A DNA stretch of 64,000 bases from Salvia splendens. Its lineage: Eukaryota; Streptophyta; Magnoliopsida; Lamiales; Lamiaceae. Within the stretch, counting starts at the first letter, position 1, and the number at the start of each line of letters is the position of its first letter. The DNA is taken from the NCBI RefSeq assembly GCF_004379255.2, contig NC_056036.1, forward strand, positions 3,472,001 through 3,536,000, read 5' to 3'. A program made the position numbers and the translations under genes. Below are positions 4,237 through 61,580 of this stretch, piece by piece. The notes below the pieces were generated by a model that saw only the letters and a program-made list of their open reading frames with translations, did no database searches and had not been told where the DNA came from.

Positions 4237-4869
4237 TGTGAAAGTGTGTCCGTGCAAACTACTGATTTGATCGAGTGTTGGAGCCGAGCTGCAGCTCAAA
4301 GAAGAGATCAAGAAATGAAGCTCGGCTTTGAGCTAGCTCGGCTAGAAAGGAGTTCGGCTAGAAAGGAGTTCGGCTAGAAAGGAGTTCGGCTATAAAGGAG
4401 TTCGGTGAAAGGAGTTCGGTAAGCTCGGCTTACCGAGCTGGAACTAGCCTGGAACTAGCCGAGAAGAAGAAGGCAGAAGAAGGAAGCTCGGCTTTGAGCT
4501 GGAACTAGCCGAGAAGGAAGAGTTCGGTTTTGAGCCGAGTAGCGGTTATAACTAACTTTGGGAAATAGAGTTAGTTGGATTTTATTTCTTGATTGCATCT
4601 TGTATAAATAGCTCGATAGAGCTCAGTAGTGAAGCAGCAGAATTACACCATATACACACACACCCAGAGAGATTAATTCTCAAGATAGCGAGCGGTTGTG
4701 AGCGGTAGAGTGTGAGTGTGAGTTGATTGTAATTGTAAAGAGTTCATCAATAAGATTCCGGTCATCTTCTCCGTGGACGTAGGTGGTTTATCACCGAACC
4801 ACGTTATATCGTTTGCGTGCTTTATTTTCTCGATTACGTGTGTGAGATCAGCGGCAACGCAACCCAACA
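4237..4869 (+). repeat. Copia-1 LTR B
   Basis: A 633-bp LTR, TGTGAAAGTG to CCCAACA, ending three bases before the primer-binding region. It has a TATAAATA box at 4603-4610, 16-bp GGCTAGAAAGGAGTTC repeats in U3 at about 4341-4403, and an inverted repeat GGTAAGC/GCTTACC in U3. It serves as 3' LTR of the deleted copy and 5' LTR of the complete copy. Confidence 0.9.
4772..4803 (+). promoter_or_regulatory. Conserved LTR hairpin, Copia-1 LTR B
   Basis: Outer stem CGTGG/CCACG, internal loop ACGTA opposite GAA, inner stem GGTG/CACC, apical loop GTTTAT. It lies about 165 bases downstream of the TATA box, so it should be transcribed, and 66 bases before the LTR end. Function is unknown; the same architecture occurs in Copia-2 and the Gypsy element. 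Confidence 0.6.
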
Positions 4870-4871
4870 GG

Positions 4872-4889
4872 TGGCGCCGTCTGTGGGAA
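4872..4889 (+). promoter_or_regulatory. Primer-binding region, Copia-1
   Basis: TGGCGCCGTCTGTGGGAA begins two bases after the LTR. The first nine bases match the complement of the 3' end of plant tRNA-Asp (known end ...ACGGCGCCA); the rest diverges. The identical 18-mer is found in the other two LTR elements of the window. Confidence 0.65.
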
Positions 4890-4988
4890 TTTCCCAAAGG
4901 AGTTCTTGATTGCTTTCTGGGATAGTTAGGGTCCAAGAATTCCGGTACTTGAGCTGATCTTGGCGATTGCCCACCGTCTGTTTGAGAA

Positions 4989-7900
4989 ATGTCTACAGCT
5001 AAGTTTGAGGTGGAGAAGTTCACCGGGAAAAATGACTTTGGGCTGTGGAGGTTGAAGATAAAGGCCATCTTGATGCAGCAGGGCCTATGGAATATCTTGA
5101 AGAATGAAGTCGATGCCGAGAAAGAAGCGGAGGTCGATGAAAAAGAGAAAGGAAAGCTTCAGGATATGCAGTATAGAGCCTACAGCACCCTAATCTTGAA
5201 TTTGTCAGATAGGGTTCTGAGGGAAGTCTCCAAAGAGGAGACAGCTGCGGGAGTATGGACAAAACTTGAGTCATTGTACATGACCAAGTCCATTACAAAT
5301 CGTTTACACCTGAAGCAGAAGCTCCTTGCATTCAGATTCTCAGATGCGAGAGGAATTACAGAGCAACTTGAAGAATTTGGTAAGTGTGTAGATGATTTGG
5401 AAAATATCGATGAGATGATCAAGGATGAAGATAAAGCCTTGATGCTGCTGAATTCGCTTCCTAAGAGTTTTGAACACTTCAAGGATGCGGTGTTACTTGG
5501 AAGAGAGTCCAAGGTTACATATGAAGAAATTCATTCTGCTCTGAAAATGAAGGAATCGCATAAGAATGATTATTCCACTTCTACTAGACAAAATGATCCA
5601 GTGGCTGAGAGTCTTTTCTTGAAGAAGGGTCAGAACAAGAAAGTTTTCAACAAGAAGAAACAAAACAAAGATAAGGCTGAGGGAGAGAGGGAGACTAGAA
5701 GCTGCTACTATTGCAGAAAGCCGGGTCACTTGAAGAAGGCATGTTTTGCTTGGAAAAGGAAGCAAGAACAAGCGATCAATGCAGGTTCAAATACTGCGGA
5801 TCTTGCTCAGGAAGTGGAGGCCAATGAGGCCTTGAATATACTCTCAGGGGCAAGAATTGAAGAATGTTGGATCATGGACTCGGGTTGCTCCTTTCATATA
5901 TGCTCCCACAGATCCTGGTTTCAAAAGTTGACAGCACACACAGGATCAGTAATGTTGGGGAATGATCAGACATGTGATGTTAGAGGGATTGGAGAAATCA
6001 AGCTGAAGGTGAGTGATGGTAGTGTAAAAACTCTCACCGAAGTGAGGTTCATACCTCAGATCAAGAGAAACTTGATTTCTTTAGGGCTGCTGGAGTCCAA
6101 GGGCTACAGGTTTGAGTCCAGTAACGGAGTGCTCAGGGTGACAAAGGGTCCCAGAATAGTCATGGAGGCCAAAAGAAAGAATAGCCTGTATTACTTGGTG
6201 GGTGAAACCGTGATCAATGCAGCAAATGTTACCCAGTCAGAGAGCCTGGATCTGTGGCATGCTAGACTTGGGCATGTGGGGGAAAAAGGCATCAAGGAGC
6301 TTGCTAAGCTGGGTGTAATGAGGCTGGGGACATCAGAGAGGCTCAACAAATGTGAGTCTTGTATTCTTGGAAAGGCAAAAAGGCTACCATTCTCTGGTGG
6401 AAAGCACACTACAACAGCTCCCTTTGTATATGCTCACAGTGACTTATGGGGGCCCTCTCCAGCAGAATCCATAGGTGGAGGTAAGTATTTCATATCTATT
6501 ATAGATGACTATTCAAGAAAGGTATGGGTTTACATCCTCAAAGAGAAGTCTCAAGCATTTGAGAGGTTTAGAGAATGGCATACTAGATATGAAAATGAGA
6601 AAGGGTCAGTGCTGAAGTACTTAAGAACTGATAATGGGATGGAGTTCTTATCTACTGAGTTTGATAGCTTCTGTAAAATGAAAGGGATAAGAAGGCATAG
6701 GACCGTGCCAAGGAACCCTCAACAGAACGGGCTGGCAGAGAGGATGAACAGGACGTTGCTAGAAAGAGTGAGATGCATGTTGTTCTACTCTGGAATGCCA
6801 AAGAAATTTTGGGCAGAGGTTGTTTCTACTGCAGCTGATCTGATTAACAAATGCCCCTCTTCATCAATTTCTAATGAGACTCCTGATCAGAGATGGTATG
6901 GAACTTTGGGAGACTACTCAGGCTTGAAGATTTTTGGGTGTGCGGCTTATGCACATATCAAGCAGAATAAGTTGGAACCAAGAGCAAGAAAATGTGTGAT
7001 GTTGGGATACCAAGATGGAGTGAAGGGGTATAGGTTATGGAATATGGATGAAGGGGGTCAGAATATCATTATGAGTAGAGATGTAGTGTTCGATGAAGGA
7101 GAAATGCCATTCAAGAAAAGTAGAGCACCCCCTGGTGGTGACAGTAGCTCTAGCATTCAAGAGTTTGAGTTTGATGAGAAATCTGCTTGGTCTGATGCTG
7201 ATGAGGATGTTGAAATCTCTGAACACCAAGAAGAAGGTGGAGCTTCCAGTTCTCAGTCAGATGAAAACACAAGAGGTGGAGATCCATCAAATCAAGGAAA
7301 CAGAAGAAATCCAAGAAGGAATGCAGGCTTGCCCAGCAGGTTTTCAGATTATGATATGAGCTTCTTTGCTCTTTGTGTAGCAGAGGTGCTCATGTTCTCA
7401 GAGCCTTCAACCTATGAAGAAGCCATAAAATGCAAAGAAAGTCAGAAGTGGATCAGAGCCATGGAAGAAGAAATAGAGTCCTTGTTGAGAAATGGGACTT
7501 GGATTTTGGTGAATGACCCAGGGACTCAGAAACTCATAAGTTGCAAGTGGCTATTTAAGAAGAAGGTTGAAGTTGGGGAAGTTGAAAGCATAATGTACTT
7601 GATGATATGTACAAGGCCGGATGTGGCTCATGCTATAAGCGTGGCTAGCAGGTGCATGGCTGATCCGGGTAGAGAACACTGGATGGCTCTGAAATGGATC
7701 TTGAAATATTTGGGAGGATCTGTTATGATTGGTTTGAGATTTGGTGGAAAAGCATGGTCTGAGAAAGATGAGATTCTTGTAGGCTACTGTGATTCTGATT
7801 ATGCGGCCAACTTGGATAATAGGAAGTCCCAAAGCGGCTACATATTCACTTTGTTTGGTACAGCCATTAGTTGGAAGTCGAATCTACAACCGGTGGTCGC

Positions 7901-8240
7901 ATTGTCCACAACTGAGGCAGAATATATTGCACTAACAGAGGCCGCAAAGGAGGGAAAATGGCTACAAGGAATCTTACAAGATCTGGGGATAGAGCTGGGA
8001 GCAGTAATGATTAATTGTGACAGCAATTCAGCCATATGCTTAGCCAAGCACCAAATGTTCCATGAGAGATCTAAACATATCGATGTAAGGAGGCACTTCA
8101 TCAGAGACGAAATTCAGAGTGGGAAGATCAATGTGGTGAAGGTTCCCACTGAAGAAAATGCCTCAGACATGTTAACCAAGTCACTACCAACTTTGAAGTT
8201 CAAGCATTGCTTGAAGTTGGTGGAAATTGTGGAATGTTGA
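4989..8240 (+). CDS. Copia-1 Gag-Pol polyprotein lacking reverse transcriptase (1083 aa)
   Basis: An uninterrupted ORF. In order: Gag of the UBN2/DUF4219 type (KFTGKNDFGLWRLKIKAIL), CCHC knuckle CYYCRKPGHLKKAC, aspartic protease DSGCS, GAG-pre-integrase (LWHARLGHVGEKG), integrase core with the DDE set (HSDLWG, RTDNGMEF, GLAERMN), then the start of RT (AMEEEIESLLRNGTWILV, CKWLFKKKVE). It jumps directly to the RT/RNase H connection (YLMICTRPDVAHAISV) and RNase H (LSTTEAEYIAL). Compared with the Copia-2 protein about 245 residues are missing, including the YVDDM active site, yet the frame is kept. With its LTRs almost unchanged, this copy was presumably mobilised by RT supplied in trans. The start is the first ATG after the PBS. 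Confidence 0.9.
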   Translation: MSTAKFEVEKFTGKNDFGLWRLKIKAILMQQGLWNILKNEVDAEKEAEVDEKEKGKLQDMQYRAYSTLILNLSDRVLREVSKEETAAGVWTKLESLYMTKSITNRLHLKQKLLAFRFSDARGITEQLEEFGKCVDDLENIDEMIKDEDKALMLLNSLPKSFEHFKDAVLLGRESKVTYEEIHSALKMKESHKNDYSTSTRQNDPVAESLFLKKGQNKKVFNKKKQNKDKAEGERETRSCYYCRKPGHLKKACFAWKRKQEQAINAGSNTADLAQEVEANEALNILSGARIEECWIMDSGCSFHICSHRSWFQKLTAHTGSVMLGNDQTCDVRGIGEIKLKVSDGSVKTLTEVRFIPQIKRNLISLGLLESKGYRFESSNGVLRVTKGPRIVMEAKRKNSLYYLVGETVINAANVTQSESLDLWHARLGHVGEKGIKELAKLGVMRLGTSERLNKCESCILGKAKRLPFSGGKHTTTAPFVYAHSDLWGPSPAESIGGGKYFISIIDDYSRKVWVYILKEKSQAFERFREWHTRYENEKGSVLKYLRTDNGMEFLSTEFDSFCKMKGIRRHRTVPRNPQQNGLAERMNRTLLERVRCMLFYSGMPKKFWAEVVSTAADLINKCPSSSISNETPDQRWYGTLGDYSGLKIFGCAAYAHIKQNKLEPRARKCVMLGYQDGVKGYRLWNMDEGGQNIIMSRDVVFDEGEMPFKKSRAPPGGDSSSSIQEFEFDEKSAWSDADEDVEISEHQEEGGASSSQSDENTRGGDPSNQGNRRNPRRNAGLPSRFSDYDMSFFALCVAEVLMFSEPSTYEEAIKCKESQKWIRAMEEEIESLLRNGTWILVNDPGTQKLISCKWLFKKKVEVGEVESIMYLMICTRPDVAHAISVASRCMADPGREHWMALKWILKYLGGSVMIGLRFGGKAWSEKDEILVGYCDSDYAANLDNRKSQSGYIFTLFGTAISWKSNLQPVVALSTTEAEYIALTEAAKEGKWLQGILQDLGIELGAVMINCDSNSAICLAKHQMFHERSKHIDVRRHFIRDEIQSGKINVVKVPTEENASDMLTKSLPTLKFKHCLKLVEIVEC

Positions 8241-8307
8241 AGTATGGAACAGGATTGAGAAGGGAATCTAGATATTGATGGAGTTTTGCAAGGACAAGGT
8301 GGAGATT

Positions 8308-8940
8308 TGTGAAAGTGTGTCCGTGCAAACTACTGATTTGATCGAGTGTTGGAGCCGAGCTGCAGCTCAAAGAAGAGATCAAGAAATGAAGCTCGGCTTT
8401 GAGCTAGCTCGGCTAGAAAGGAGTTCGGCTAGAAAGGAGTTCGGCTAGAAAGGAGTTCGGCTATAAAGGAGTTCGGTGAAAGGAGTTCGGTAAGCTCGGC
8501 TTACCGAGCTGGAACTAGCCTGGAACTAGCCGAGAAGAAGAAGGCAGAAGAAGGAAGCTCGGCTTTGAGCTGGAACTAGCCGAGAAGGAAGAGTTCGGTT
8601 TTGAGCCGAGTAGCGGTTATAACTAACTTTGGGAAATAGAGTTAGTTGGATTTTATTTCTTGATTGCATCTTGTATAAATAGCTCGATAGAGCTCAGTAG
8701 CGAAGCAGCAGAATTACACCATATACACACACACCCAGAGAGATTAATTCTCAAGATAGCGAGCGGTTGTGAGCGGTAGAGTGTGAGTGTGAGTTGATTG
8801 TAATTGTAAAGAGTTCATCAATAAGATTCCGGTCATCTTCTCCGTGGACGTAGGTGGTTTATCACCGAACCACGTTATATCGTTTGCGTGCTTTATTTTC
8901 TCGATTACGTGTGTGAGATCAGCGGCAACGCAACCCAACA
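8308..8940 (+). repeat. Copia-1 LTR C
   Basis: A 633-bp terminal LTR matching LTR B except C for T at 8701 as far as can be seen. TATAAATA box at 8674-8681. It ends CCCAACA directly against host DNA ATTAAATACC, a sequence resembling ATCAAATACC in the paralogous segment near 20228. Confidence 0.9.
8843..8874 (+). promoter_or_regulatory. Conserved LTR hairpin, Copia-1 LTR C
   Basis: Same as the LTR B hairpin: CGTGG (8843-8847) pairs with CCACG (8870-8874), GGTG (8853-8856) with CACC (8863-8866), internal loop ACGTA/GAA. It is 66 bases from the LTR end. Confidence 0.6.
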
Positions 8941-9655
8941 ATTAAATACCTAAAAAAAATTCTAACACCTAAAAAATCTAATAAATCAATACTTAAAAAT
9001 TGATTTATTGCAATATTGGTAAAATTATAAAATTGTATGAAATTAATATTGAAATTTAATATGATTCCCTGATAAAATAGAAAATCGAACAGGACAAAAA
9101 TTTGTAACTGTGATCGGATCAAAAACTGATCCTCCAATTCTCATTCTTCATATGACCGGTTAAAAATCAGTCTGAGAGGCGACTAAGACTCCTTAGTTTG
9201 TCTTTATTGAAATCTTCTAGTGCACTTTTATTTGCATATTTTGAATTAAATTTTTTATGTGATAAACTTTTATCAATATACATATATGAGTCTTAAACAA
9301 ATACAAAGGAAAAAGCTAGCAATAGTCACTATAAAATTAGTGTTTAACTAAGTACAGCTTGAGCCACCGTATTGTTTACTCTAGTGAGGTACATTGGGCC
9401 AGAGTAGTTGCAAAAGCCTAACTCCATTTTCTTCATTTTGATTCCCATTTACAGCATCAAAACCAGTGAATTATAGAGATTGAATGTCCCAAAAGTAGGC
9501 GATACACTTTTTGTGAACAATGAACAGAATATGATACACCTTCTTGGGCATTGATGACCGACCAATATGCCCTTACCTTTATATTTTTAGCATATAAAAC
9601 TTTATTATAATTTGAATACATCTCTATATAAAATTTTAGACGATAAGGTGAACAA
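8941..9655. other. Intergenic, part of the duplicated OMT segments
   Basis: AT-rich and without a supportable gene. 9190-9370 is homologous to about 20931-21145 (shared CTAGCAATAGTCACTATAA, GATAAACTTTTATCAATATA). 9390-9470 resembles the TTGGGCC...AGTAGTT...AAAAGCCTAA segment found near the other OMT copies. Confidence 0.6.
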
Positions 9656-13730: not shown

Positions 13731-13769
13731 AAATAAAATAAATTATAATAATAATAGTCATTTCGTTCG

Positions 13770-13770
<1 letters not shown>

Positions 13771-24186: not shown

Positions 24187-24745
24187 TGTTAGGAATGTGC
24201 GTCTCATAAATCAATAATTCAATATACAATGCATGCATGAGTAAAAGGGTTGAACCGAGGGTGCATGCGAGTGTATGAGAAGGACGCGTGCATGTGATCT
24301 TACTCACTCAAGATTCGGTTAGGAGCTGGGTATAAGAGGCTTCATTTGGCTCATGCGGGAATAACAGAATCATTCAGATATACAAGAGAAAATTCGAGAC
24401 ATGAGATAAGAGCGGCAGATACGATTGTTCAATCCGAGTGAGAGATTGAGTGGGGATCTTTGTGATCGAGTTCGTGGTGTCTATTCTGTTCTTCTTCGTG
24501 GTGTTTCGTGGTCTTCTTGGGTGCGGATTAAAAGTTGTGTTTCTTGTATGATCCATTAGAGAAGAGGTTAGTTCTTGTGGATTGATTCTTGTAGTTTGTG
24601 AAGCTTGTATCTCTCGAATCCATAATCAATACAATCGCTTGAGTTCTCCCGTGGACGTAGGCTGATTTTGGCCGAACCACGTATATTGTTGTCGTGTTTG
24701 TTATTGTTTTCTTCGTTCACGTTTACAATCGGAGCTAGAATTACA
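24187..24745 (+). repeat. Copia-2 5' LTR
   Basis: TGTTAGGAATGTGCG to GAATTACA, 559 bases, followed by AAT and the PBS. Contains the conserved hairpin at 24650-24681. Confidence 0.88.
24650..24681 (+). promoter_or_regulatory. Conserved LTR hairpin, Copia-2
   Basis: CGTGG (24650-24654) pairs with CCACG (24677-24681); internal loop ACGTA/GAA identical to Copia-1; inner stem GGC (24660-24662) pairs with GCC (24671-24673), extendable by a T-G wobble. It is 64 bases from the LTR end. Confidence 0.6.
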
Positions 24746-24748
24746 AAT

Positions 24749-24766
24749 TGGCGCCGTCTGTGGGAA
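24749..24766 (+). promoter_or_regulatory. Primer-binding region, Copia-2
   Basis: TGGCGCCGTCTGTGGGAA, identical to those of Copia-1 and the Gypsy element; the first nine bases fit plant tRNA-Asp. Confidence 0.65.
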
Positions 24767-24796
24767 GTTTGATTGAAGAAAGGCGTGAAGTTTGCG

Positions 24797-27700
24797 ATGG
24801 CTGGAAACCGGTTCGATTTTGAGAAGTTTACGAGTAAGAATGATTTCGGATTATGGAAGGTGAGAATGAAGGCCATGCTCGTGCAGCAGGGTCTCTGGGA
24901 AGCTACCAGTTTCGAGTTACCAGACAAAACCACTGATCTTGAAGACAAAGAGGTGGTCAAGAAGATCGACTTGATGGACAGAGCTCATAGTACTCTGATG
25001 CTCAGTCTTGGAGATCGGGTGTTGCGGGAAGTGTGCAAGGAGAAGACTCCTAAGGCAGTTTGGAATAAGCTCGAATCAATCTACATGACAAAGTCACTTG
25101 CCAATCGATTGTTCTTAAAGCAAAGACTGAATTCCATCAAATTCATTGAAGGGAAGGGCATCATGGAGCAATTGGACGATTTTGTAAAGGCAGTGGATGA
25201 TCTTGAATGTGTGGATGGGGAAATAAAGGATGAGGATAAAGCAATCATGTTCCTCAACGCTCTTCCAAGAAGTTTTGATCAAATGAAGGATGCACTTCTG
25301 TATGGAAGAAATACATCTCTCACATTTGAAGAGGTTATGACAGCTTTGAAGGCAAAGGAGTTTCAGAGGATCTCCATCATCAAACCAGTGGATCAAGCTG
25401 GAGAGGTTCTCAGCATAAAGTCAGTTGATAAGAAGAATGAGAAGAAGAAGTGGCCCAAGAAAGGAAAGTCTGATAAAAGGGATGACAAAGAGACCAGATC
25501 ATGCTTCCACTGTAAAAAGCCAGGTCACATCAAGAAAAACTGCTATGCGTTCAAAAGAAAGAAGGAAGAGGAAGGTATTCTTGCTGGAACAGCAGATGTG
25601 GCTCAAGAGGTTGAGAATGCTCAAGTGTTGAACATAGCTGATGTGGATATTGCTGAATCTTGGATTATGGATAGTGGATGCAGCTTTCATATGTGTCCCA
25701 AGATTGAATGGTTTGATAAATTGGTGCAAGCATCAGGGTCAGTTTTCATGGGGAATGATCACAAGTGTTCCATCAAGGGGATAGGGGACATCAGACTGAG
25801 GATGAAAGATGGCTCACTGAAGATTTTATCCGAGGTCAGATTCATACCAGAAATTAAAAAGAACCTCATATCCTTGGGAGCTCTCGAAAGGAAGGGATGT
25901 TCATTTCTCTCATCTGGTGGAGTTATGAAGGTAATGAAGGGGTCTCAGATAGTGATGGAGGCAAAGAGAATACACAGCCTATATTTCTTGGAAGTAGTGG
26001 TTGTGACTAATGCTGTTAATATAGTAGAGCACCAGACTCCAGAATCATGGCATCTAAGACTCGGGCATGTGTCTCTGGATGGTGTCAACAGACTTATCAA
26101 GGAAGGCATCATCCAGGCAGAATCCACCATGAGTTCAAGGGATTGTGAAGTATGCATTCTTGGAAAAAGCAAGAAATTGGTGTACCCCGCTGGAAAACAC
26201 ACATCCTCTTCTGCCTTAGACTACGCTCACAGTGTTATATGGGGGCCATCACAAGTCGCTTCCATAGGTGGAGGTAGATACTTCTTATCAATCATAGATG
26301 ACTATTCCAGAAAACTGTGGTTATTTGTTATGAAGGAAAAGTCAGAGCCTTCTCTAAATTTAGGGAATGGTGTGTAGAAGTTGAGGTGGAGAAATCTACT
26401 GCACTCAAGTGTCTTCGGACAGACAATGGATTGGAATTTCTATCCCACGAATTTGATTATTTCTGCAAACTCAGAGGAATAAAGAGACACAGAACCGTGC
26501 CCAACAATCCTCAACAGAATGGAGTTGCTGAGAGGGCAAATAGAACAATTCTTGAAAGGGTGAGATGCATGCTCATCTCCTCTAGTATGCCCTCCAAGTT
26601 CTGGGGTGAAGCAGCTACTACAGCTGCTGTGTTGATGAACAAATGCCCAGTAGCGTCAATTGAATACCAGACTCCAGATTTTAGATGGTATGGGAAGAAT
26701 GAAGATCATAATAAACTCAAGCCTTTTGGGTGTAGAGCATTCTCACATATCAAACAAGGCAAGCTGCAGCCTAGAGCATTGAGGTGTGTCTTGATTGGAT
26801 ACCAAAAGGGAGTTAAAGGGTATAGACTTTGGTCTATGGAGCCAGGTAATCAGAAAGTAATCATAAGCAGGGATGTGATATTTAGAGAGCAAGAAATGCC
26901 ATATAAAGATCTTGAGAAGGCTGTGATTACAGATAGAATGAATGATCAAGTGGAGGTGGAGCTTCAAGGCAAACCTGATACTGATCAGAATAATGAAGAT
27001 GAGAGTTCATCAGAATCTGATCTGGAAACACACCAGTTTAGTGCTGAGGTAGAGACTACTGATCAAGGTGTTGAGGATTCTGATAACCTCACAAATTACC
27101 AGCTGGCTAGAGATAGAAAGAGAAGAGAAGTCATCAGGAAGCCTGCCAGATACAGCAATGCAAGTTTGGCATATTATGCACTCTGTGTAGCAGATGAGGT
27201 GGAGGCAGCAGAACCTGTGAATTATGTTGAAGCCATAAAAGGCCGAGACAAGGACAAGTGGATCAGAGCTATGCAGGATGAGATTGATTCCCTATTGAAG
27301 AATAAGACTTGGATTCTAGTTACAAGAAAGAAATTGCAGAAGTTGATTGGATGCAAGTGGATTTTTAAGAAGAAAATAGAGGCATCCGAAGGAAATAGGA
27401 TCAGGTACAAAGCCAGGCTAGTGGCTAAGGGATACAATCGAAGAGAATGCATTGATTTTAATGAGATCTTTTCTCCGGTAGTTAAGCACAGTTCCATCAG
27501 AATACTTATGGCCTTGGTTGCTCAAAATGATTGGGAATTACATCAAATGGATGTAAAAACAGCATTCCTTTATGGTGAGTTGGAAGAGAGCATATACATG
27601 GAGCAACCGGAGGGGTTTGTGAGGAATGGAGATGAGAACAAAGTGTGTTTATTGAAGAGAAGTATCTACGGGTTGAAGCAGTCCAGTAGGCAATGGAATA

Positions 27701-28785
27701 TTCAATTCGATCAGCATATGAAGAGGATAGGATTTGAGAGCTCACAATATGATAGTTGTGTATACATAAAGAAGAAGGATGGGAAGCCAGTAGCTTTTCT
27801 CTTATTGTATGTTGATGATATGCTCGTGACAGGATCTGATATGAATGAAATCCTAAAGGTGAAGAATGATCTGAGCAGCCGGTTTGAAATGAAAGACTTG
27901 GGTGAAGCCAAGAGGATATTGGGCATAGACATCATAAGGGACAGGAGAAGAAGAATACTATGGCTTAATCAGAATCATTATGTGGAAAAGCTACTCAAAA
28001 GATTCCAAATGGAGGAGTCAAGAACTGTGTCAACACCAATTGGACAGCAGTTCTTGCTCACTGCTGATCAGTGTCCTAAAAGCAAGGAAGAGGAAGCTCA
28101 GATGAAGAATATTCCATATGCCAACATCATTGGAAGTGTGATGTGCTTAATGATCTGCACTAGGCCGGATTTGGCCCATGCAGTCAGTGTAACTAGCAGA
28201 TACATGAGCAACCCGGGGAAGGTGCATTGGCAAGCTTTGAAATGGATGTTGAGGTATCTGGGAGGAACTTCAGACTATGGTATAATGTATAAGGGCAGTG
28301 ATGATTCGCTCAAGGAAAGTCTGGAGGGATTTTGTGATTCGGATTTTGCATCCAACAGAGATAACAGAAAATCACAAACCGGGTATGTTTTCACACTATT
28401 TGGCTCAGCTATATCCTGGAAGTCTGGTCTACAGTCTGTGGTGGCCTTGTATTCTACCGAGGCAGAGTATATTGCTCTCACAGAGGCAGTAAAGGAGAGC
28501 TTTTGGGTGAAAGGAATCCTGGATTATTTGGGATTGAAGCAGGAGAAGGTTGCTGTGAATTATGATAGTAGTAGTGCGATTTGTCTATCGAAACACCAGA
28601 CATTTCATGAGAGGAGTAACCACATAGATGTGCGGTTACATTTCATTCGAGATAAAGTGAGGAAAGGAAAGGTAGAGGTGAGGAAGATCGCAACAGAGCA
28701 CAATCCAGCCGACGCTTTAACCAAGGTGGTGCCAACATCCAAGTTTTACCATTGCTTGGAGTTGGTGAGAGTTCTGAAAAGATGA
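24797..28785 (+). pseudogene. Copia-2 Gag-Pol with one frameshift
   Basis: Two overlapping frames make one Copia polyprotein of about 1,330 residues: Gag (KFTSKNDFGLWKVRMKAML), knuckle CFHCKKPGHIKKNC, protease DSGCS, GAG-pre-integrase (WHLRLGHVSLDG), integrase (HSVIWG, RTDNGLEF, GVAERAN), reverse transcriptase with LLLYVDDMLVTG, and RNase H (CDSDFASNRDNRKSQTGY, STEAEYIAL). The frame breaks at about 26347, in the integrase after MKEKSE, where one base seems to be missing; downstream it is open to the end. The second integrase block has HSVIWG where Copia-1 has HSDLWG, so the first catalytic Asp is replaced by Val. It is therefore defective in integrase twice over, but its RT region is complete and shows what Copia-1 lacks. 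Confidence 0.88.
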
Positions 28786-28856
28786 AGTTCAGAGGGAAGG
28801 AGAACAAGGACATCATGTTATTGATATAGGAGACAAGGTGGAGATTTGTTAGGATT

Positions 28857-29132
28857 GTGCGTCTCATAAATCAATAATTCAAGATACAATGCATGCATGA
28901 GTAAAATGGTTGAACCGAGGGTGCATGCGAGTGTATGAGAAGGACGCGTGCATGTGATCTTACTCACTCAAGATTCGGTTAGGAGCTGGGTATAAGAGGC
29001 TTCATTTGGCTCATGCGGGAATAACAGAATCATTCAGATACACAAGAGAAAATTCGAGACATGAGATAAGAGCGGCAGATACGATTGTTCAATCCGAGTG
29101 AGAGATTGAGTGGGGATCTTTGTGATCGAGTT
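28857..29132 (+). repeat. Copia-2 3' LTR, truncated
   Basis: Matches the first 276 bases of the 5' LTR up to GATCGAGTT, then switches to unrelated repeat DNA. The half with the hairpin is missing. Confidence 0.88.
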
Positions 29133-29960
29133 GAATGCTAACTATATATCATTTTATCAGTCAGTCAAAAGTATCATTTTATCAACTCAGAATATCATTC
29201 TATCCGGCAAAACTATCATTCTATGCAATAAACCTATCATTTTATCAGTCAGTCAAAAGTATCATTTTATCAACTCAGAGTATCATTCTATCCGGCAAAA
29301 CTATCATTCTATGCAATAAACCTAACATAATCGGCACAATACATAATATACAAACCTACAAAGCAGTAAACGTATCATTTTATCAACTCAGAGTATCATT
29401 TTTATAAGGTTTCTGTCATTTTATCCACTTAGATTATCATTTTATCAGGTAAAAGGATCATTTTATTAAACAAAAAGGTCATTTTATACCAAAAATACCT
29501 ATCATTCTATCGGCTGAAAGTTCATTCTACCCGCCAAAACTATCATTCTATCGGCTGAAAGTATCATTCTATCCGGCAAAACTATCATTTTATGCAGTAA
29601 ACCTAACATTTATAAGCTAAAAGTGTCATTTTATCAACTCAGGGTATCATTCTATCCGGAAAAACTATCATTGTATGCAATAAACCTAATATATATCATT
29701 TTATCATTTTATCAGTCAGTCAAAAGTATCATTTTATCAACTCAGGGTATCATTCTATCCGGCAAAACTATCATTCTATGCAATAAACCTGTCATTTTAT
29801 CATTTTACGTGATATTTGGCGAAATTCAGAGTATCATTTTATCAATCAAGAGTATCATTTTATCAACTCAGAGTATCATTCTATCCGGCAAAACTATCAT
29901 TCTATGCAATAAACCTAACATATATCATTTTATCATTTTACGTGATATTTGGCGAAATTC
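29133..29960 (+). repeat. Short-period array (TATCATTTTATC / TATCATTCTATC family)
   Basis: Dozens of variants of TATCATTYTATS separated by short spacers (AACTCAGAG, CGGCAAAAC, GCAATAAACC, CAGTCAGTCAAAAG). A longer block of about 115 bases containing them recurs several times. A homologous array in the opposite orientation lies at 35080-35566 (shared GGTCATTTTATACC, AAAAATAC and TATCATTCTATCGGCTGAAAG read on the other strand). The ORFs across it are repeat artefacts. Confidence 0.85.
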
Positions 29961-53444: not shown

Positions 53445-54022
53445 CGCGAGATAAAAACCCCAGATTCAAACGAGAAACCCCAGATCTAGAAACCCCAATC
53501 ACCAAGATCTATAATTGATAAAAAAAAAATTCAATCCCAACCAAGGCACATCCAGTTTCGGGAATTCACATTAGCCCCCTTCGTCAATTCGACCATGAAA
53601 CACACTCACACGCAGACAGTTGCTCTCAGTTGTGGTGCTGCTACTGATGAGTGTGATCTCTGTGTGTGTGTTGTAGGGGTTGGATTTGACTCTTGCGCTG
53701 CTGCCTTTTGGTATATGCTGTGTTACCAAAAAAAAAGACTACAACTTTTTTGTATTGTTTTTATTTATTCGCATCTTTTTCACCTTCCATTATTTCTTTT
53801 TCGTAGTAATGTTTACATTTATACTATTAAGAAATGCACTTTTATTTTTATCCAAAATCTTGAAATTTTGTAAGCTACTATATTTAGTAAAAGATCATAA
53901 AAAAATACCCATTAATTGTGCTTCAGCATATTTTCCCAGCGTTCTAAAAATGCATAAACATTCCACATCTCATTTCAAAGAACAAGCCTTGAAATTATGG
54001 AAATGTTTTGAGAATATAGGTG
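53445..54022. other. Intergenic, G3BP promoter side up to the Gypsy insertion
   Basis: Includes likely 5' UTR and promoter of the G3BP-like gene (minus strand). The ORFs at 53595-54135 have low-complexity Phe/Leu-rich translations and are not supported. It ends with the left target duplication AGGTG (54018-54022). Confidence 0.55.
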
Positions 54023-54605
54023 TGACGGGGTACGAACTAAACAAGCCCAAGGAAGAGTATGAGTTCGGCATTACCAAAGAGTTCGGAGGAGTTCGGCATT
54101 ACCAAAGAGTTCGGCCTCAGCCTACAGCTCGGTAAAAGCCAACCAATCAAGCTCTGCTCTCAGGTCGGCATCAAGCTCTACTCTCAGATCGGCAACCAAA
54201 GCAGTTCGGTCTCAGTATTCGACCGAACAAGGAGTTAGTGGACCCATGCAGGATTTCCACAACTTCCAACACACCCACTACCACGTGGCGTCAACTCAGG
54301 CCACGATCTTAGGCCATGACCTACACGACCTCCACGACCTAGAGTGATGATGTAAGCCACGATCTTAGTTCAATGTATAAATAGAACTTAGATCTGGTAG
54401 AAAAGGGTTAGAATCTCTCTAGAGAAATAATCATATAGCAAGTCTGTGTTGTAAGCTGTAATTCGCAGATCAAGCAATACAAACCTGCCCCCATTTCTCC
54501 CCGTGGACGTAGATTTACCTCAGTAAATCGAACCACGTAAAATTCTCTGTGTCGTAATTTATTTTTACGAGCATTTATCATCATCAAAAATTCGCGGAAT
54601 CATCA
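54023..54605 (+). repeat. Gypsy 5' LTR
   Basis: TATAAATA box at 54377-54384. U3 has repeated GTTCGGCATTACCAAAGA words (54063-54110) and many TCGG words. Conserved hairpin at 54502-54537. Confidence 0.95.
54502..54537 (+). promoter_or_regulatory. Conserved LTR hairpin, Gypsy 5' LTR
   Basis: CGTGG (54502-54506) pairs with CCACG (54533-54537); internal loop ACGTA/GAA identical to the Copia elements; inner stem GATTTAC (54512-54518) pairs perfectly with GTAAATC (54523-54529); loop CTCA. It is 68 bases from the LTR end. Confidence 0.65.
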
Positions 54606-54606
54606 C

Positions 54607-54624
54607 TGGCGCCGTCTGTGGGAA
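54607..54624 (+). promoter_or_regulatory. Primer-binding region, Gypsy
   Basis: TGGCGCCGTCTGTGGGAA starts one base after the LTR. Nine bases fit the 3' end of plant tRNA-Asp; the 18-mer equals those of both Copia elements. Confidence 0.7.
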
Positions 54625-54681
54625 CCAGAGAACAAAATTTGTGATAAAGCGAATTTTTGATCCATTTTTTCCACCCAAAAA

Positions 54682-55734
54682 ATGCATACCAGATCGCAGA
54701 GTACCCGTATTCCTGCCCGTGAGAACCAGGAGGAAGCCAATCCATCCCATAGGTCGGGAAAACAGCCTAGGGATAAATCCACCACCAGTTCTCATGGTGG
54801 AGGAACAAGCCGCTCCAAAAGCCGTCACACCGAGTCTTCCCAGCAGCCCGATTTGAACGAGGCTGTCAAGCTGTTTTTGGCGGAAAAGCAGGAGGAATTC
54901 TTAACCTTCCTGCAAAAAAGCCAAAAGCAGCCGGGGACAAAAACGGCGGATTCTCCCTCTCCCTCCATACGAGACAGTCACTACCGCAGTAGTGTCATGT
55001 CTTCCAGAAGAAAGAATCCTCGGTACCGGAATCACAGGAGAACTCCATCTCCTCCATACCGAAGAAATGTCGGGTTCGCCATGTACGGAGTATTGAGGAC
55101 TCCGTTCTCGGACGATATTACCCGAACTCCCCTTCCACAGAACTACCGAACTCCGTCGATAACCTATGACGGACTCGTGGATCCTCATGACTTCCTGGGA
55201 CGCTATCAGTATAATATGGCGAACCAAGGTCTCAATGAGGTCCATATGTGCAAGCTGTTCCCCGAGCTGCTCATCGGGAACGCCAGAAGGTGTTTCGACA
55301 GCCTTCCTCAAGGCAGCATTAGATCCTACCGAGATCTGATGGATGCTTTCCACAGGAGGTTCTTTCAGAAAGCGGAAGCCCGAAATACTTCGGCTCAGCT
55401 GCTTTCTATACGTCAAGGTCGCGACGAAAAGATCAGCGACTTCCTGACGAGATTCCATAAGGAATGCCTACAGGTAGATAATCTCAATGATCTACTTGTC
55501 ATTTCGGCATTCCAAAATGGAATCCTGCCCGGAGCTCTCTACAGAAAGCTCGTGGAGTGCGGTCCGCAAACAGCTCAAGAGATGTGGGACCTTGCGGACA
55601 AGTTTTCTCGTGCCGATGAGGCAGACCGTCGAAAACGGTCTTTAGACAGCTCATCCAGAGAAGACAAAAAGAAGCCCGGTCATAGCGATCAGAGGCATCC
55701 TCGCCGAACACCTTCTCCACTAAAGGAGAGATAG
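54682..55734 (+). CDS. Gypsy Gag (350 aa)
   Basis: Intact ORF 77 bases after the LTR. The N-terminal third is basic and Ser/Pro-rich. Residues ~165-310 are a Ty3/Gypsy Retrotrans_gag capsid domain (ARRCFDSLPQGSIRSYRDLM, FHRRFFQ, LLSIRQGRDEKISDFLTRF, LLVISAFQNGILPGALYRKL, MWDLADKF). The C-terminal tail is Lys/Arg-rich (RRTPSPLKER). No CCHC knuckle is seen before the stop, where the pol deletion begins. It may assemble particles with help from an autonomous relative. Confidence 0.9.
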   Translation: MHTRSQSTRIPARENQEEANPSHRSGKQPRDKSTTSSHGGGTSRSKSRHTESSQQPDLNEAVKLFLAEKQEEFLTFLQKSQKQPGTKTADSPSPSIRDSHYRSSVMSSRRKNPRYRNHRRTPSPPYRRNVGFAMYGVLRTPFSDDITRTPLPQNYRTPSITYDGLVDPHDFLGRYQYNMANQGLNEVHMCKLFPELLIGNARRCFDSLPQGSIRSYRDLMDAFHRRFFQKAEARNTSAQLLSIRQGRDEKISDFLTRFHKECLQVDNLNDLLVISAFQNGILPGALYRKLVECGPQTAQEMWDLADKFSRADEADRRKRSLDSSSREDKKKPGHSDQRHPRRTPSPLKER

Positions 55735-55857
55735 CGGTCATCCGAGGTGATCGAAAAAGAGCAAGTGTGTTCGCAGATTGCGCTTAAAAGTGCCGAGCAA
55801 TCAGTTCGGCACCATCAAGCATAGCAATCACAGCAGCCGGAATCAGAGGCCGGCGAA

Positions 55858-56289
55858 ATGGCCGAAGTCACACCGGAGCCGAACTCGATGGAGTACGGCA
55901 CTGAAGCCGTGATTCGGTTGAGATCGGCATATCCAGTCCCCGAACTCAATTTCTCCTCAGAAATGAATGGTGATGGACTGAGAGCCGAACTAGATCTTGC
56001 CGAAGAAAGAAGAGAATTGGCCTGCCTAAAAGCAGCCAAGTACAAGGAGCAAGTAGCCCGGTATTACAACCAAAGGGTGAAGAAGCTGCAATTTCAAGTG
56101 GGAGATCTCGTCTTGAGAAACAACGAAGTAAGCCGAGCAGAAAAGCTGGGCGAACTCGAGCCCACATAGGAAGGTCCATATCGGGTGTCAGAAGTCCTCG
56201 GCAAAGGGTCTTAAAAATTGACTCACGCGTCAGGAGCACAAGTACCCCGAACATGGTACGTTTCCAACCTCAAGAAGTTCCATTTGTAA
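55858..56289 (+). pseudogene. Gypsy integrase C-terminal remnant
   Basis: Translation matches the C-terminal part of plant Ty3/Gypsy integrases: EYGTEAVIRLRSAYPVPE, LDLAEERRELACLKAAKYK, VARYYNQRVK, FQVGDLVLRNNEVSRAEKLG, EGPYRVSEVLGKGS, VPRTWYVSNLKKF. In-frame stops at 56167-56169 (TAG where the family has Trp) and 56212-56214 (TAA where the family has Tyr). Everything upstream in pol is deleted. Confidence 0.88.
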
Positions 56290-56450
56290 GAGACAGTCCG
56301 GTCAGTCAGTCTTATGTGTTTTCTTTGTTTTTTACTTGTTCTTGTCTCTACGTGCGTTGTGTCTGTCTATGTGAGTGTCGTCTCTTACAAATAAAACTGA
56401 GGTATCTCGTTCTTCAAAGGCTGATCCCCTTTTTAGAACATACAAGCCAA

Positions 56451-56806
56451 CGATTGTGCGTCAAAGCTTCTAAAGAGGATACAAGACCACAATTCAGCTT
56501 AAACAAGCAGTTCGTCTGAAACGAGCTGCAACAAGCCCACGATTGTGCGTCAAAGCTTCTAAAGAGGATACAAGACCACAATTCAGCTTAAACAAGCAGT
56601 TCGTCTGAAACGAGCTGCAACAAGCCCACGATTGTGTGTCAAAGCTTCTAAAGAGGATACAAGACCACAATTCAGCTTAAACAAGCAGTTCGTCTGAAAC
56701 GAGCTGCAACAAGCCCACGATTGTGTGTCAAAGCTTCTAAAGAGGATACAAGACCACAATTCTGCTTAAGAATCAAGCACTTCGTCTGAAACGAACTGCA
56801 ACAAAA
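56451..56806 (+). repeat. 89-bp tandem repeats, four copies
   Basis: Unit starts at 56451, 56540, 56629 and 56718 (CGATTGTGYGTCAAAGCTTC ... AAACGARCTGCAACAA), nearly identical; the last copy is slightly diverged. It follows the pol remnant. Confidence 0.92.
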
Positions 56807-57071
56807 GTCCGATTCTCGCGATAAAACTTGCCTGAATTAGGACAAGGGAAAGTCCAATCCACGCGATAAAACTCGCCGAATTAGGACGACCAAGTTCGGT
56901 CAAAGCAGTTTACCTCATAAGACCGAGGACGACCATGTCTAGTCAAAGAGGTTTACTGCATAAGACCACTTCGGTTAACTGGGAAAGTCCGATCCACGCG
57001 ATAAAACTCGCCGAATTAGGACAAGGGAAAGTTCGATCCCGGCGACGAAAATCGCCAAATTAGAACACAAA

Positions 57072-57656
57072 GACGAGTCCGGTCAAAGATGTTTATTTCA
57101 TCAGACCAAAGACGAGTCCGGTCAAAGATGTTTATTTCATCAGACCAAAGACGAGTCCGGTCAAAGATGTTTATTTCATCAGACCAAAGACGAGTCCGGT
57201 CAAAGATGTTTATTTCATCAGACCAAAGACGAGTCCGGTCAAAGATGTTTATTTCATCAGACCAAAGACGAGTCCGGTCAAAGATGTTTATTTCATCAGA
57301 CCAAAGACGAGTCCGGTCAAAGATGTTTATTTCATCAGACCAAAGACGAGTCCGGTCAAAGATGTTTATTTCATCAGACCAAAGACGAGTCCGGTCAAAG
57401 ATGTTTATTTCATCAGACCAAAGACGAGTCCGGTCAAAGATGTTTATTTCATCAGACCAAAGACGAGTCCGGTCAAAGATGTTTATTTCATCAGACCAAA
57501 GACGAGTCCGGTCAAAGATGTTTATTTCATCAGACCAAAGACGAGTCCGGTCAAAGATGTTTATTTCATCAGACCAAAGACGAGTCCGGTCAAAGATGTT
57601 TATTTCATCAGACCAAAGACAAGCCCGGTCAAAGAAGTTTACTTCATAAGACCGAG
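57072..57656 (+). repeat. 39-bp tandem array, 14 identical units plus one variant
   Basis: Unit GACGAGTCCGGTCAAAGATG... with a strict 39-base period from 57072; fourteen copies look identical and the fifteenth (57618-57656) is diverged. Precursor-like single units lie upstream at about 56890-56970. As 39 is a multiple of three, both strands stay open across the array. Confidence 0.97.
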
Positions 57657-57801
57657 GACAAGTACGATGAAATTTTTTCGCTAAGCTGTAAATACACAGT
57701 GTTAGAAGCGAAAACAAAAACAAAATTTCATTTTCAAATCTTGTTCGGCACACAACTCCGCTACCCTACAAGATGGCGTTACGCTATTACAAAGGACTGT
57801 T

Positions 57802-60664
57802 CTACTGTCCAGGGTTGCTAAAGTTGAGCCATCTATTCACAAAATCCTCGTGAAGCTGAGTTCGGGCGTTCCAGGCAGCTGCAGAATAAGCAGGTCGACG
57901 AGATGCTCTAATCGACCTGCCACCTCTTCTCTGAGCCCGGGAAGCCCTAGCACCTCGGCGGCGAAGAGTCTCTTCACGAAGCAGTTGTTGGTCTTGCTCA
58001 CTCATAATCACAGCTCCTCTACGAACTTCAGCCTGTTCTCGTCTTGACGTTTCCGGCTGTTCCAGAGTTCGTTGCTGACTTGGAGTACGGTTTTGAGCAA
58101 GTGAATCAAAGGTTTGATCTGGAGTGCGAGCATCTGTTGGCACGATATGCCGAAGGAATCTTTCTATGGAGGGGCGCCGAGAAAGAACAATGTTGTACCG
58201 AGAAGCCCAGCGCCGCAATGATGTCACGACTTGTTGGCAAGCCGAGCTCTCCAGCGCATTGTTCCTCCGGAGTACATTATATTCCTCCCACAGTTCGTCA
58301 ACTCGACTCTGAACATCTGATATGGTCATTCCCCCGCGCACACGGATGTAATCCTCGTACGCAGTCCTCTCAGCAATGGTCGTATTCAGCTCGGCCTCCA
58401 GATCATTCTTATCGGACTCTAAGTCCTTATTATCGGCATCCAGCTTCACCAAACGAGCCAGAAGCTCGTCATTCTTCGTCTGATCGGCTATAGCTCTTTT
58501 CTCAGCTTCGTCTAAAGCCGAGGAGTACAGCCGCTTCCAGTGAAGTACCTCCAGCTCCTGGAGAGTTAAGAATACAAAGCAGCTACGTCAGTTCGGCATT
58601 TCAGCTTACCGAGCAGGTAGTAAACCACAACAGGAGTAAGAGAGTACGAAAGGCTATACGAAGACACAAGAGCAGAAAGAAGAATTTTTTCATTCATAAG
58701 AAAAAATTTTTCTATACAAGGAGGGCTTCAAGGCCATTTTACATAAAGGAAGAAACTAAACTAAGAGAAGGGAGACGAAATCATACTTCGCTAGCTTCGT
58801 CTCCACCTTCTCGGTGAGGTTCAGCTTCCTTCTCATCTGCTTCAGCTTCAGCCTCTGCCTCCTTGCTCTCCTCAGCCTGCTCGGCGCCACCGTAGCCGAT
58901 CTGCTGCGTCTCCTGATCGGCTTCCTTCTCCGGATGCCCGGCTCGCTCGACTTCGGCCTCCCGCTCCAGCGGCTCGGCCTCACCCTCTCCGTTGTAAGTC
59001 GAAGCGGGTGAAACGGGTCCCACGGAGGCAAAGATAGCCTCCAGGTTCTCGTCCCGATCAGCTCGACAACTCCGGACTCGGTCTGCAGAAAGCAGGACCG
59101 AAGATGAAGCGAGCTCCTCAAGGAGCGGCAGATTCTGAAGCCGAGCTGCTATCTCTCGGCTGTACAGAGGCAGTACGACATCGGCCCCCTGCTCGCCCTT
59201 ATCGGCAATTAGCCTTACCAGACTACCGACAAAAGCCGAGAACTGGCTACTCAAAAAGAGTTTCTCCGTGTAAACACGGAGAGCCTCCCCCTGGGCAACC
59301 ACGGCGGCAGCATCACTCCGTTTCGTCTGCTCTCGCTGGATGACGAGCTGGTTTTTGGCAAACTGAGCTTCATCCTGGGCCGAAATCCTAGCAGCTCTGG
59401 CTTTCTCAAAGTTTGCCTCGGCCTGCTCGGCCCGGTGACAAGCAGCCGCCAATTTCCTCTGCATCTCAGCATAGTCGTTGGACGCTTTGGAGAGTTCGAC
59501 GGCGACGAGCTTGGAGAGCATATCGTTCCTCTGAAAATGGACAAGGAAAAAAGTCAACAGAGGGCACCAAAAATACAGGACAGAAGCCAAGCCAAAGAAT
59601 CAAGAAGACAATTCACCTCGGCGAAGTCCGTGGGCCATAAAAATGGCTCACAGATATGCTCCGAAGGAGGCGCCAAGACCACGTCTTTCTCTGGCGCTCT
59701 CGGGGGCTTCTGGGTCCTCCCCTTCCTACTTGCCGAAGTCGACTCCGGCTTCTTTGGACCCGAAGAGGTCTTTTGCCTCTTCGGATTCTTCTCGGCATCA
59801 GGCGCCGAGCTGGTAGCCTTCTCTTTCTCCGGCTCCTCAAGCTCGGAGGACTTTCGGATAGCCTTATTCAGCATGAACACTGCCAAAAAGCAAGAAAACA
59901 AGGTTAGTTTTCTTCGTTAAAGCAGTAGAGCATAAAGATAAAGAGAAATCCTCACCCTCGGCCTCTTCGTCCGAAGACGAGATATTGAACACGAGGTCGC
60001 CCTTGACGAGCTCAGTTTCCGAATACTGTTTCCTAATCATAGGAATCTTATTGAGCTCGCCCTCGAGCTCGGCCAACGGTTCTAACCGAGGATGGGGAAT
60101 CACGGACTTCGGCCTTCTCCAAGGAAAGCCCGGAGCCGAAGTCCTATTATAAAAAAAGAAACGGTTTTGCCATTTCGGCCACTTGGTTTTGCAGAAGGCC
60201 CTAAAAGGCTGTAAGGGGATCAAGTAAAACCAAGATCCCTTCCTTTTAAACTGGAAAAAATTAAGGATTGCCCTCAGAGACAGATCCTTATCTAGCCTAC
60301 GCAGTTCGGCAGCAAAAGCCGATAAGTGCCTCCAAGAGTTCGGAGTCACCTGACCTAAAGGGAGTTGAAAAAAATCAAGAAGCTCTACAAAAGGTGGGGG
60401 AAGAGGAAAACGAAGCCCGCATTCTAAGCAGGCTTCGTAAACGGTGGCATAACCCTCCGGCGGGTCGTTAGCCCTATGATCATCGTCGGGAACCACCGCC
60501 TTCCCCCCAGGTAAAAAATATTTCTCGTGAAGGGATATCACAGTATCCTTACTCAAGATACTGTGAAAATACTCTACGGTCTTCTCCCCGGATTCTTTCC
60601 GGCTAGAAGACCCCTTATCCCCTTTCCTACCGCTACCCGACACCGAAGAAGAAGAAGAAGACAT
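57802..60664 (-). CDS. Antisense ORF gene of the Gypsy element (putative gypsy-type transposon domain plus coiled coil)
   Basis: Four exons on the minus strand: 60664-59956, 59879-59617, 59530-58787 and 58557-57802, GT-AG borders; joined frame about 823 aa. Exon 1 is Ser-rich, then resembles the plant "putative gypsy type transposon" domain (PF04195-like: ISLHEKYFLPGG, DPPEGYATVYEACLECGLRF, LPPPFVELLDFFQLPLGQVTPNSW, GSWFYLIPL). Exon 2 is Lys/Glu/Pro-rich with FMLNKAIRKSSE. Exons 3-4 are long charged helices, probably coiled coil (RNDMLSKLVAVELSKASNDYA, AACHRAEQAEANFEKARAAR, LESDKNDLEAEL), ending in an Arg-rich part and NRWLNFSNPGQ. If the third intron (donor GAA|GTATGA) is not used, the protein stops at EASEV (58781). 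Antisense ORFs at this place are known in Tat elements; function unknown. Confidence 0.75.
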
Positions 60665-60984
60665 TTTTCTTACTTTTTGAAAGTGAAGAAAGTCTGAAGA
60701 AGCTCTTGAAAGCGGAAGAAAATTTCTCGAGAAAGAGAGAGTATAGAAGACGCAACAGCAAAGGTGTTCAAATGAGGAAGAAAGAGCATATTTATCAGAT
60801 TCGGCGAAGATTTCAAAATCGTCGCACCGTTTCGAATCCCACCTTTTCAGGATTCAACGGCCGGATTTTACTGTCGCATTTAATGCAGTCACATGCAAGG
60901 CACGTCCCCTGACGTCAGCCTCCCCCGTACCTTTATCCAGAATGCCGAAGTGACTCGCTTCGCCGAAGTGATTCACTTCGTCTT

Positions 60985-60997
60985 TCGGGGGGGGTAG
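60985..60997 (+). promoter_or_regulatory. Polypurine tract, Gypsy
   Basis: A run of G (CGGGGGGGGTAG) directly before the 3' LTR, expected site of plus-strand priming. Confidence 0.65.
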
Positions 60998-61580
60998 TGA
61001 CGGGGTACGAACTAAACAAGCCCAAGGAAGAGTATGAGTTCGGCATTACCAAAGAGTTCGGAGGAGTTCGGCATTACCAAAGAGTTCGGCCTCAGCCTAC
61101 AGCTCGGTAAAAGCCAACCAATCAAGCTCTGCTCTCAGGTCGGCATCAAGCTCTACTCTCAGATCGGCAACCAAAGCAGTTCGGTCTCAGTATTCGACCG
61201 AACAAGGAGTTAGTGGACCCATGCAGGATTTCCACAACTTCCAACACACCCACTACCACGTGGCGTCAACTCAGGCCACGATCTTAGGCCATGACCTACA
61301 CGACCTCCACGACCTAGAGTGATGATGTAAGCCACGATCTTAGTTCAATGTATAAATAGAACTTAGATCTGGTAGAAAAGGGTTAGAATCTCTCTAGAGA
61401 AATAATCATATAGCAAGTCTGTGTTGTAAGCTGTAATTCGCAGATCAAGCAATACAAACCTGCCCCCATTTCTCCCCGTGGACGTAGATTTACCTCAGTA
61501 AATCGAACCACGTAAAATTCTCTGTGTCGTAATTTATTTTTACGAGCATTTATCATCATCAAAAATTCGCGGAATCATCA
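60998..61580 (+). repeat. Gypsy 3' LTR
   Basis: Same as the 5' LTR by eye over all 583 bases (offset +6975). TATA box at 61352-61359, hairpin at 61477-61512. Followed by the right target duplication AGGTG. Confidence 0.95.
61477..61512 (+). promoter_or_regulatory. Conserved LTR hairpin, Gypsy 3' LTR
   Basis: Identical to the 5' LTR hairpin (54502-54537). Confidence 0.65.

Follow-up and report, generated by a model that had tools for sequence, protein, structure and literature searches.

A covarying hairpin shared by Copia and Gypsy long terminal repeats in Salvia splendens

Three long terminal repeat (LTR) retrotransposon families, two of Copia type (Copia-1 and Copia-2) and one of Gypsy type, lie in a 64-kb stretch (C5:3472001-3536000; the window) of the 806-Mb genome assembly of the plant Salvia splendens. 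A first-pass annotation of this sequence described in their LTRs a common two-helix hairpin, with fixed outer stem (CGTGG/CCACG) and asymmetric internal loop (ACGTA/GAA) and an inner stem that differs between families, raising the question of whether this is a selected structure, which elements carry it and what it could do. All five hairpins listed there are exact matches with the outer stem, loop and inner stems given for them (Table 1), and a covariance model of 45 relatives, among them three of these five, recovers all five (E 5.1e-12 to 2.4e-10). The earlier observation holds and its extent is larger than first reported: the hairpin occurs in one Copia group and in a Gypsy lineage with a second RNase H domain.

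Inner-stem covariation and abundance

The fixed frame of the hairpin is CGTGG-AYGTA...GAA-CCACG. Inner-stem variants were taken from among the genome matches listed for each search pattern (~100 places per pattern; all 39 for the form in which the inner stem does not begin with G), giving 69 distinct inner sequences, some of them represented by a single and probably decayed copy. Among the 31 variants seen at two or more places, pairing holds in 120/124 cells at the first four inner positions, whereas 20,000 re-deals averaged 87.6 and reached at most 106; the whole set minus one variant that is too short (68 of 69) gives 253/272 (re-deals: mean 188.7, maximum 216).

An alignment of 45 hairpins comprises 44 distinct inner sequences of the Salvia genome plus one from a viral-catalogue contig (L002, see below). 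Its outer-stem and loop letters were imposed by the search patterns, making their invariance uninformative; pairing of the inner arms was not required. Inner pairs 2, 3 and 4 are changed on both sides in 19, 15 and 22 sequences, respectively, and the resulting 56 paired double-change cells (shuffle mean 18.0) were matched by 0/500 shuffles, bearing out the compensatory change claimed by the first-pass annotation. The covariation score is 0.374, against 0.144 (standard deviation, sd, 0.014) for shuffles and ≤0.130 for slid partners; simply counting the pairs that show a double change (3) gives no excess over shuffles (454 of 500). RNAalifold, run without a supplied structure, returned the same nine pairs. 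The annotation had also held that inner arms failing to pair in relatives would count against the structure, which survived: 96.7% of inner-stem cells are paired (first four inner cells of the 45 plant sequences, 174/180, 97%), versus 151/320 (47%) in an outside control of 80 distinct chance matches in bacterial and viral contigs. The aligned sequences are related, so the shuffles overstate significance, but relatedness seems an unlikely cause of the pairing, given the variety of pairs (GC, AU, CG and UA).

The annotation left open whether the structure forms in RNA or as a DNA cruciform. A sense-strand RNA tolerates G.U, whereas a double-stranded cruciform sees G.U and A.C alike; the inner stem of the alignment contains 11 G.U cells and 2 A.C or C.A (two-sided binomial 0.02), with 9 vs 3 in the 31-sequence set (0.15) and 20 vs 8 in all variants (0.04), although these cells are not independent. 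A selected structure is retained, and the counts modestly favour, but do not prove, RNA rather than cruciform.

Some families have a GAAA, GCAA, GTAA or TTCG tetraloop, too few to weigh. Related-looking hairpins at L332 and at C9:16499184, C14:22329453, C14:22754875 and C15:12244770 differ by a change of the closing inner pair from G.U to A-U and of the loop from GAAA to GCAA, the latter retaining a GNRA-type tetraloop.

The pattern CGTGGAYGTAGBN{4,33}GAACCACG has 1579 genome matches (839+740), CGTGGAYGTAGANVN{3,31}GAACCACG has 204+193 and the form with an inner stem not beginning with G has 17+22; reversed-pattern controls gave 0 in each case. The exact copies counted (~2,000) exclude the abundant GATT class (Gypsy form). 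The primer binding site (PBS) of the window elements, TGGCGCCGTCTGTGGGA, occurs 2692+2730 times in the genome, and a CGTGG...CCACG hairpin lies 60-110 nucleotides (nt) upstream of 24 of the first 30 places on C1; inspection of the upstream sequence of the other six revealed a hairpin in none. Among the next 17 C1 places, 14 were inspected without imposing the motif (two of the three skipped resemble repeats of a neighbour and one was already in the set, with a hairpin): 13 carry the hairpin and one does not, bringing the total to 37/44. Outer stem and internal loop are exact in 13/13 of these hairpins chosen without the motif, all of them the GATTTAC Gypsy form, a sample that is not phylogenetically broad. 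Hairpin-free elements with the same PBS include L353-L355 with L370, and L356-L358, the latter being three places ~7.1 kb apart.

A hairpin-like segment was also found in a contig of a viral catalogue (L002, IMGVR_UViG_3300011977_000147), which resembles a plant LTR fragment at 500-1000 and has a fully paired variant at 850-885. This contig may be plant or chimeric DNA. Other exact-pattern matches in viral contigs, and those among the matches listed for genome contigs, are mostly GC-rich and were treated as chance, and a search of viral contigs with the reverse transcriptase (RT) of Copia-2 found no relative.

Carrier elements and position within the LTR

Copia-2 RT served as the tblastn query in the search for Copia RT. 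Matches (46.5 to 63.4% identity) were identified in 8/8 one-kb slices placed by offset in hairpin elements and in L267, L268 and L269 of 12 long stretches; tblastn found no RT in the other nine long stretches, which are short, truncated or Gypsy-type. In an unrooted RT tree, 12 rows chosen for their hairpins (including window Copia-2, the near-copies L267 and L268, partial L339 and long-branched L340) form one side of a branch with support 100/100, versus 12 of 30 high-scoring RVT_2 loci (from 150 scored of 14446 first-look candidates). None of these 30 loci has a match to the covariance model ≤1.5 kb from the RT, and six followed 2 kb further yielded no hairpin; absence of the hairpin from other Copia elements, whose LTRs were not delimited, is likely but not proven. 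Loose text-pattern matches in L276 and L349, one each, were spurious.

The first-pass annotation placed the hairpin in both superfamilies. The ORFs (open reading frames) tested of the window's Gypsy-type element include no RT, while the element at C1:2504400-2510800 has the GATTTAC hairpin, PBS TGGCGCCGTCTGTGGGA, a gag 88% identical to that of the window element and domains in Gypsy order (RVT_1, RT_RNaseH, RVT_3, Integrase_H2C2, rve, SH3_Tf2-1). A second RNase H is a mark of the Tat group of Gypsy elements. The superfamily crossing is borne out by RT domains on the Copia and the Gypsy side, the latter from a single element.

Flanking sequences were compared in a set of 44 (L002 dropped; the Gypsy-type AATACA copy at 54476 is outside this set). 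An AATAAA, AATAAG, AATAAC or AATACA word starts 21-27 nt upstream of the hairpin in 37/44 (sd 1.7) and TTGTAA or TTGTAT is found at -41 to -60 in 35/44; other upstream 20-nt bins contain these words in at most 3 and 7 sequences, respectively. The seven bases preceding the hairpin contain almost no A. CCACG is followed by T in 44/44 and then by A or T, after which comes a T-rich stretch. The hairpin-to-PBS distance is 38-119 nt (sd 16.6, n=29; in 14 of the remaining 15 sequences no PBS was matched up to 150 nt away, and the match in the other was discarded as spurious) and the TATA-to-hairpin distance 135-253 nt (sd 31, n=25). The tightest neighbour of the hairpin is the AATAAA-like word upstream, rather than the LTR end. 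Near-constant distances to the LTR end of 66, 64 and 68 nt, reported by the first-pass annotation, fit PBS starts 68, 67 and 69 nt after the hairpin in the window families, but across the 29 sequences near-constancy is only partly kept.

Possible functions and known systems

The textbook layout of plant polyadenylation (poly(A)) sites consists of UUGUAA, AAUAAA, a U-rich cleavage region and a YA cleavage dinucleotide, with mRNA cleavage expected 10-30 nt after the near-upstream element. Given the 21-27 nt spacing, the hairpin therefore sits where plant cleavage is expected. The reading that we prefer, and hold at about even chances, is that the sequence forms a sense-strand RNA hairpin at or next to the border of the repeat (R) and unique 5′ (U5) regions, working in the 3′-end-processing module. 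The hairpin would lie in R or at its end, inside this module, and could compact the distance from poly(A) signal to cleavage site and so fix the 3′ end of R: folding would hold the TA after the hairpin ~20 nt from the signal instead of ~55. Cleavage at the TA/TTA just 3′ of the hairpin is a proposal, given that UA and CA are also present within it. As part of R, the hairpin would recur in the leader at the 5′ end of the genomic RNA, ahead of the PBS. That two superfamilies have it would be best explained by LTR-module recombination between co-packaged RNAs, and the rearranged first unit of Copia-1 (see below), a single case, would fit a jump of RT out of pol onto another RNA's 3′ end. A wider proposal, that this is one widespread plant RNA element with a bulged-G-like loop that binds a host protein while compacting the poly(A) site, exchanged between Copia and Gypsy within the LTR module, seems doubtful; if it is true, two superfamilies share one 3′-end or leader control device.

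Several observations weigh against a 3′-end-processing hairpin. The Copia hairpins are thermodynamically ordinary, folding no better than shuffled sequence (z: Copia-1 -0.44, Copia-2 -0.43; Gypsy -2.99, L002 -1.95), and the best folds of 131-136 nt drop the hairpin in Copia-1 and Copia-2, keeping it only in Gypsy. The AATAAA-like word is missing from its usual place in 7/44 sequences. Cleavage could precede the hairpin, which would then belong to U5 only, and a scan for poly(A) downstream of hairpin copies returned one match, which looks unrelated, vs 12 in the control. The outer stem may be conserved as sequence: a search for double changes, covering its middle pair only, found two places, one compensated (CGCGG/CCGCG) in a recognisable hairpin and another that looks unrelated, leaving a single compensated double change. 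A likeness between the outer stem and the anticodon arm of tRNA-Arg was considered and set aside. Nor is the hairpin indispensable, because seven of the 44 PBS places, apparently from two element families, do without it. PBS distances cluster too, with a mode of 66-73 nt in 16/29.

This last cluster would also suit a genomic-RNA leader element in U5, involved in packaging, dimerisation, primer transfer RNA placement or initiation of reverse transcription, with its proximity to the poly(A) signal a matter of LTR anatomy. This alternative, which is possible if tentative, draws as well on the hairpin preceding the PBS in all three window families and at 37 of the 44 C1 places, but across families the PBS distance varies whereas the spacing to the poly(A)-like word is tight, some elements with the same PBS have no hairpin, and the hairpin is present in a family whose PBS is of Met type (L319; 7 of 10 places). 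These last two observations led us to reject a strict link between the hairpin and the TGGCGCC primer site. A DNA-level element, either a transcription-factor site or a cruciform downstream of the promoter with selection on the outer sequence, might account for outer arms that hardly vary and for the constant T after CCACG; CCACGT is the reverse complement of an ACGTGG-type core. A factor site leaves inner-stem covariation unexplained, however, and G.U in excess of A.C, albeit in small numbers, is not predicted by a double-stranded cruciform, and we regard a DNA-level role as quite unlikely.

The AYGUA/GAA internal loop holds what we take to be the core letters, GUA/GAA, of the bulged-G (sarcin-ricin or loop E) motif, plus one extra base. 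The motif consists of a GUA/GAA core with a bulged G, a U.A pair and a sheared A.G pair. A conserved asymmetric internal loop in a variable stem resembles a protein-binding site, and the hairpin might be a processing or silencing target that recruits a host RNA-binding protein or RNase and tunes element expression. Loop conservation was imposed by the patterns in the alignment; it was not imposed in the PBS-place sample, which represents one family only. The ~23 nt spacing to the poly(A)-like word would need a separate explanation, and this reading is judged unlikely. Shared descent without present function, the hairpin having travelled as a passenger when Copia and Gypsy elements exchanged LTRs, would explain why the similarity extends to the flanks (TTGTAA, AATAAA-like word, Y-rich run, TAAA and a GT-rich stretch), but an inner stem that stays paired through dozens of sequence changes is not expected of a passenger, and covariation already makes this very improbable.

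As a probable cis-acting RNA structure in an LTR, the hairpin is of a known kind. LTR retrotransposons make up much of plant genomes, and to our knowledge few RNA structures controlling the 3′ ends, packaging or priming of plant LTR elements have been described. A covarying hairpin found in thousands of copies and common to Copia and Gypsy is a defined target for testing: the R/U5 border, the choice between 5′ and 3′ poly(A) and the exchange of LTR modules become directly testable, and LTR finders would gain a structural anchor for the R/U5 border.

Human immunodeficiency virus type 1 (HIV-1) has a poly(A) hairpin and human T-cell leukaemia virus type 1 (HTLV-1) a folded RNA between AAUAAA and the cleavage site. 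Like these, the Salvia hairpin would be a structure of the LTR transcript beside an AAUAAA-like signal at the R/U5 border; unlike them, it has the signal outside, a conserved internal loop, carriers in two superfamilies and a plant host. No Rfam family reaches the gathering score over the whole window; near the Gypsy hairpin there are two weak small nucleolar RNA matches, on the other strand, with E up to 5 and far below that score. No description of the hairpin was found in open-licence literature.

The papers compared here are represented by partial texts. The conserved LTR motifs of plant Pseudoviridae (Retrofit, Sire) are likewise noncoding signals of plant Copia LTRs; the portion compared reports that R is very short, finds no poly(A) signal that is conserved in these LTRs and mentions no such hairpin (PMC3601003), while the Salvia elements have both the hairpin and a tightly placed AATAAA-like word. 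Sirevirus palindromes, most with a CGG-CCG core, including the LTR palindromic repeats and the inverted repeat at the polypurine tract (PPT), are likewise palindromic, noncoding and conserved in plant Copia, but according to the part compared they occupy the PPT or sequence 5′ of the TATA box (PMC2829016). Retrozymes (PMC4918200), which are non-autonomous plant retrotransposons equipped with hammerhead ribozymes, also carry structured RNA; they differ in that the window has no Rfam match at gathering score. The text of PMC11656987 contains neither "hairpin" nor "stem-loop", nor the motif letters sought in it. Citrus LTR-IRAP (inter-retrotransposon amplified polymorphism) primers LTR 7 and LTR 9 contain GACGTAGGCTAAAAGCCGAACCA and GTAGGCGGGGATTGCCGAACCA (PMC7876178), parts of the hairpin whose inner arms pair as GGCT/AGCC and GGC/GCC, although the partial text gives them as PCR primers only and does not comment on structure. 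On this partial source, the hairpin is not confined to the Salvia genome, because the Citrus primers contain its parts.

Elements of the window

Table 1 Hairpins and associated features of the three LTR retrotransposon families in the window.
Feature	Position	Strand	Evidence
Truncated hairpin, Copia-1 first unit	2114..2141	+	identity comparison; covariance model
AATAAG, poly(A)-signal-like, start 23 nt 5′ of Copia-1 hairpin	4749..4754	+	read in sequence
Hairpin, Copia-1 second LTR copy, inner stem GGTG/CACC	4772..4803	+	exact match; cmsearch 52.8 bits
PBS TGGCGCCGTCTGTGGGA, Copia-1	4872..4888	+	sequence match
Copia-1 gag-pol ORF, Copia gag (PF14223) and integrase-side domains	4989..8240	+	domain search
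Hairpin, Copia-1 3′ LTR	8843..8874	+	exact match; covariance model
AATACA, start 22 nt 5′ of Copia-2 hairpin	24628..24633	+	read in sequence
Hairpin, Copia-2 5′ LTR, inner stem GGC/GCC	24650..24681	+	exact match; covariance model
PBS TGGCGCCGTCTGTGGGA, Copia-2	24749..24765	+	sequence match
Copia-2 gag (PF14223) and pol, two overlapping ORFs, RVT_2 present	24773..28785	+	domain search
AATACA, start 26 nt 5′ of Gypsy-type hairpin	54476..54481	+	read in sequence
Hairpin, Gypsy-type element 5′ LTR, inner stem GATTTAC/GTAAATC	54502..54537	+	exact match; covariance model
PBS TGGCGCCGTCTGTGGGA, Gypsy-type element	54607..54623	+	sequence match
gag (PF03732), Gypsy-type element	54682..55734	+	domain search
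Hairpin, Gypsy-type element 3′ LTR	61477..61512	+	exact match; covariance model

Copia-1 (1116-8940) is a three-LTR tandem of near-identical units, and a domain search matched RVT_2 in neither half of its ORF. The covariance model adds a truncated sixth hairpin (2111-2145), absent from the first-pass annotation. The third LTR copy is truncated at this hairpin: it matches 3774-4799 up to 2141, and from 2145 the sequence matches pol (6216 onward). The first unit is a natural chimera, with an LTR-to-pol deletion that has its LTR breakpoint at the 3′ side of the hairpin.

The Gypsy-type element (54022-61580) has a sense gag plus antisense ORFs including PF04195. The 116 places scored for its gag in the genome (of 8403 first-look candidates) are all 97-100% identical, with open frames of 356-405 codons, and a protein search with the gag gave one match. 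An array of 39-nt units inside the element (56951-57789) is open in several frames. A second inverted repeat of its LTR, with the same arms, CGTGGCGTCAACTCAGGCCACG, is found at 54284-54305 and 61259-61280, upstream of the TATA box.

The Copia-2 family shows one hairpin copy, because the matched part of its 3′ LTR (28846-29132) stops ~178 nt short of the hairpin position. Past this matched part, a different repeat family begins near 29147.

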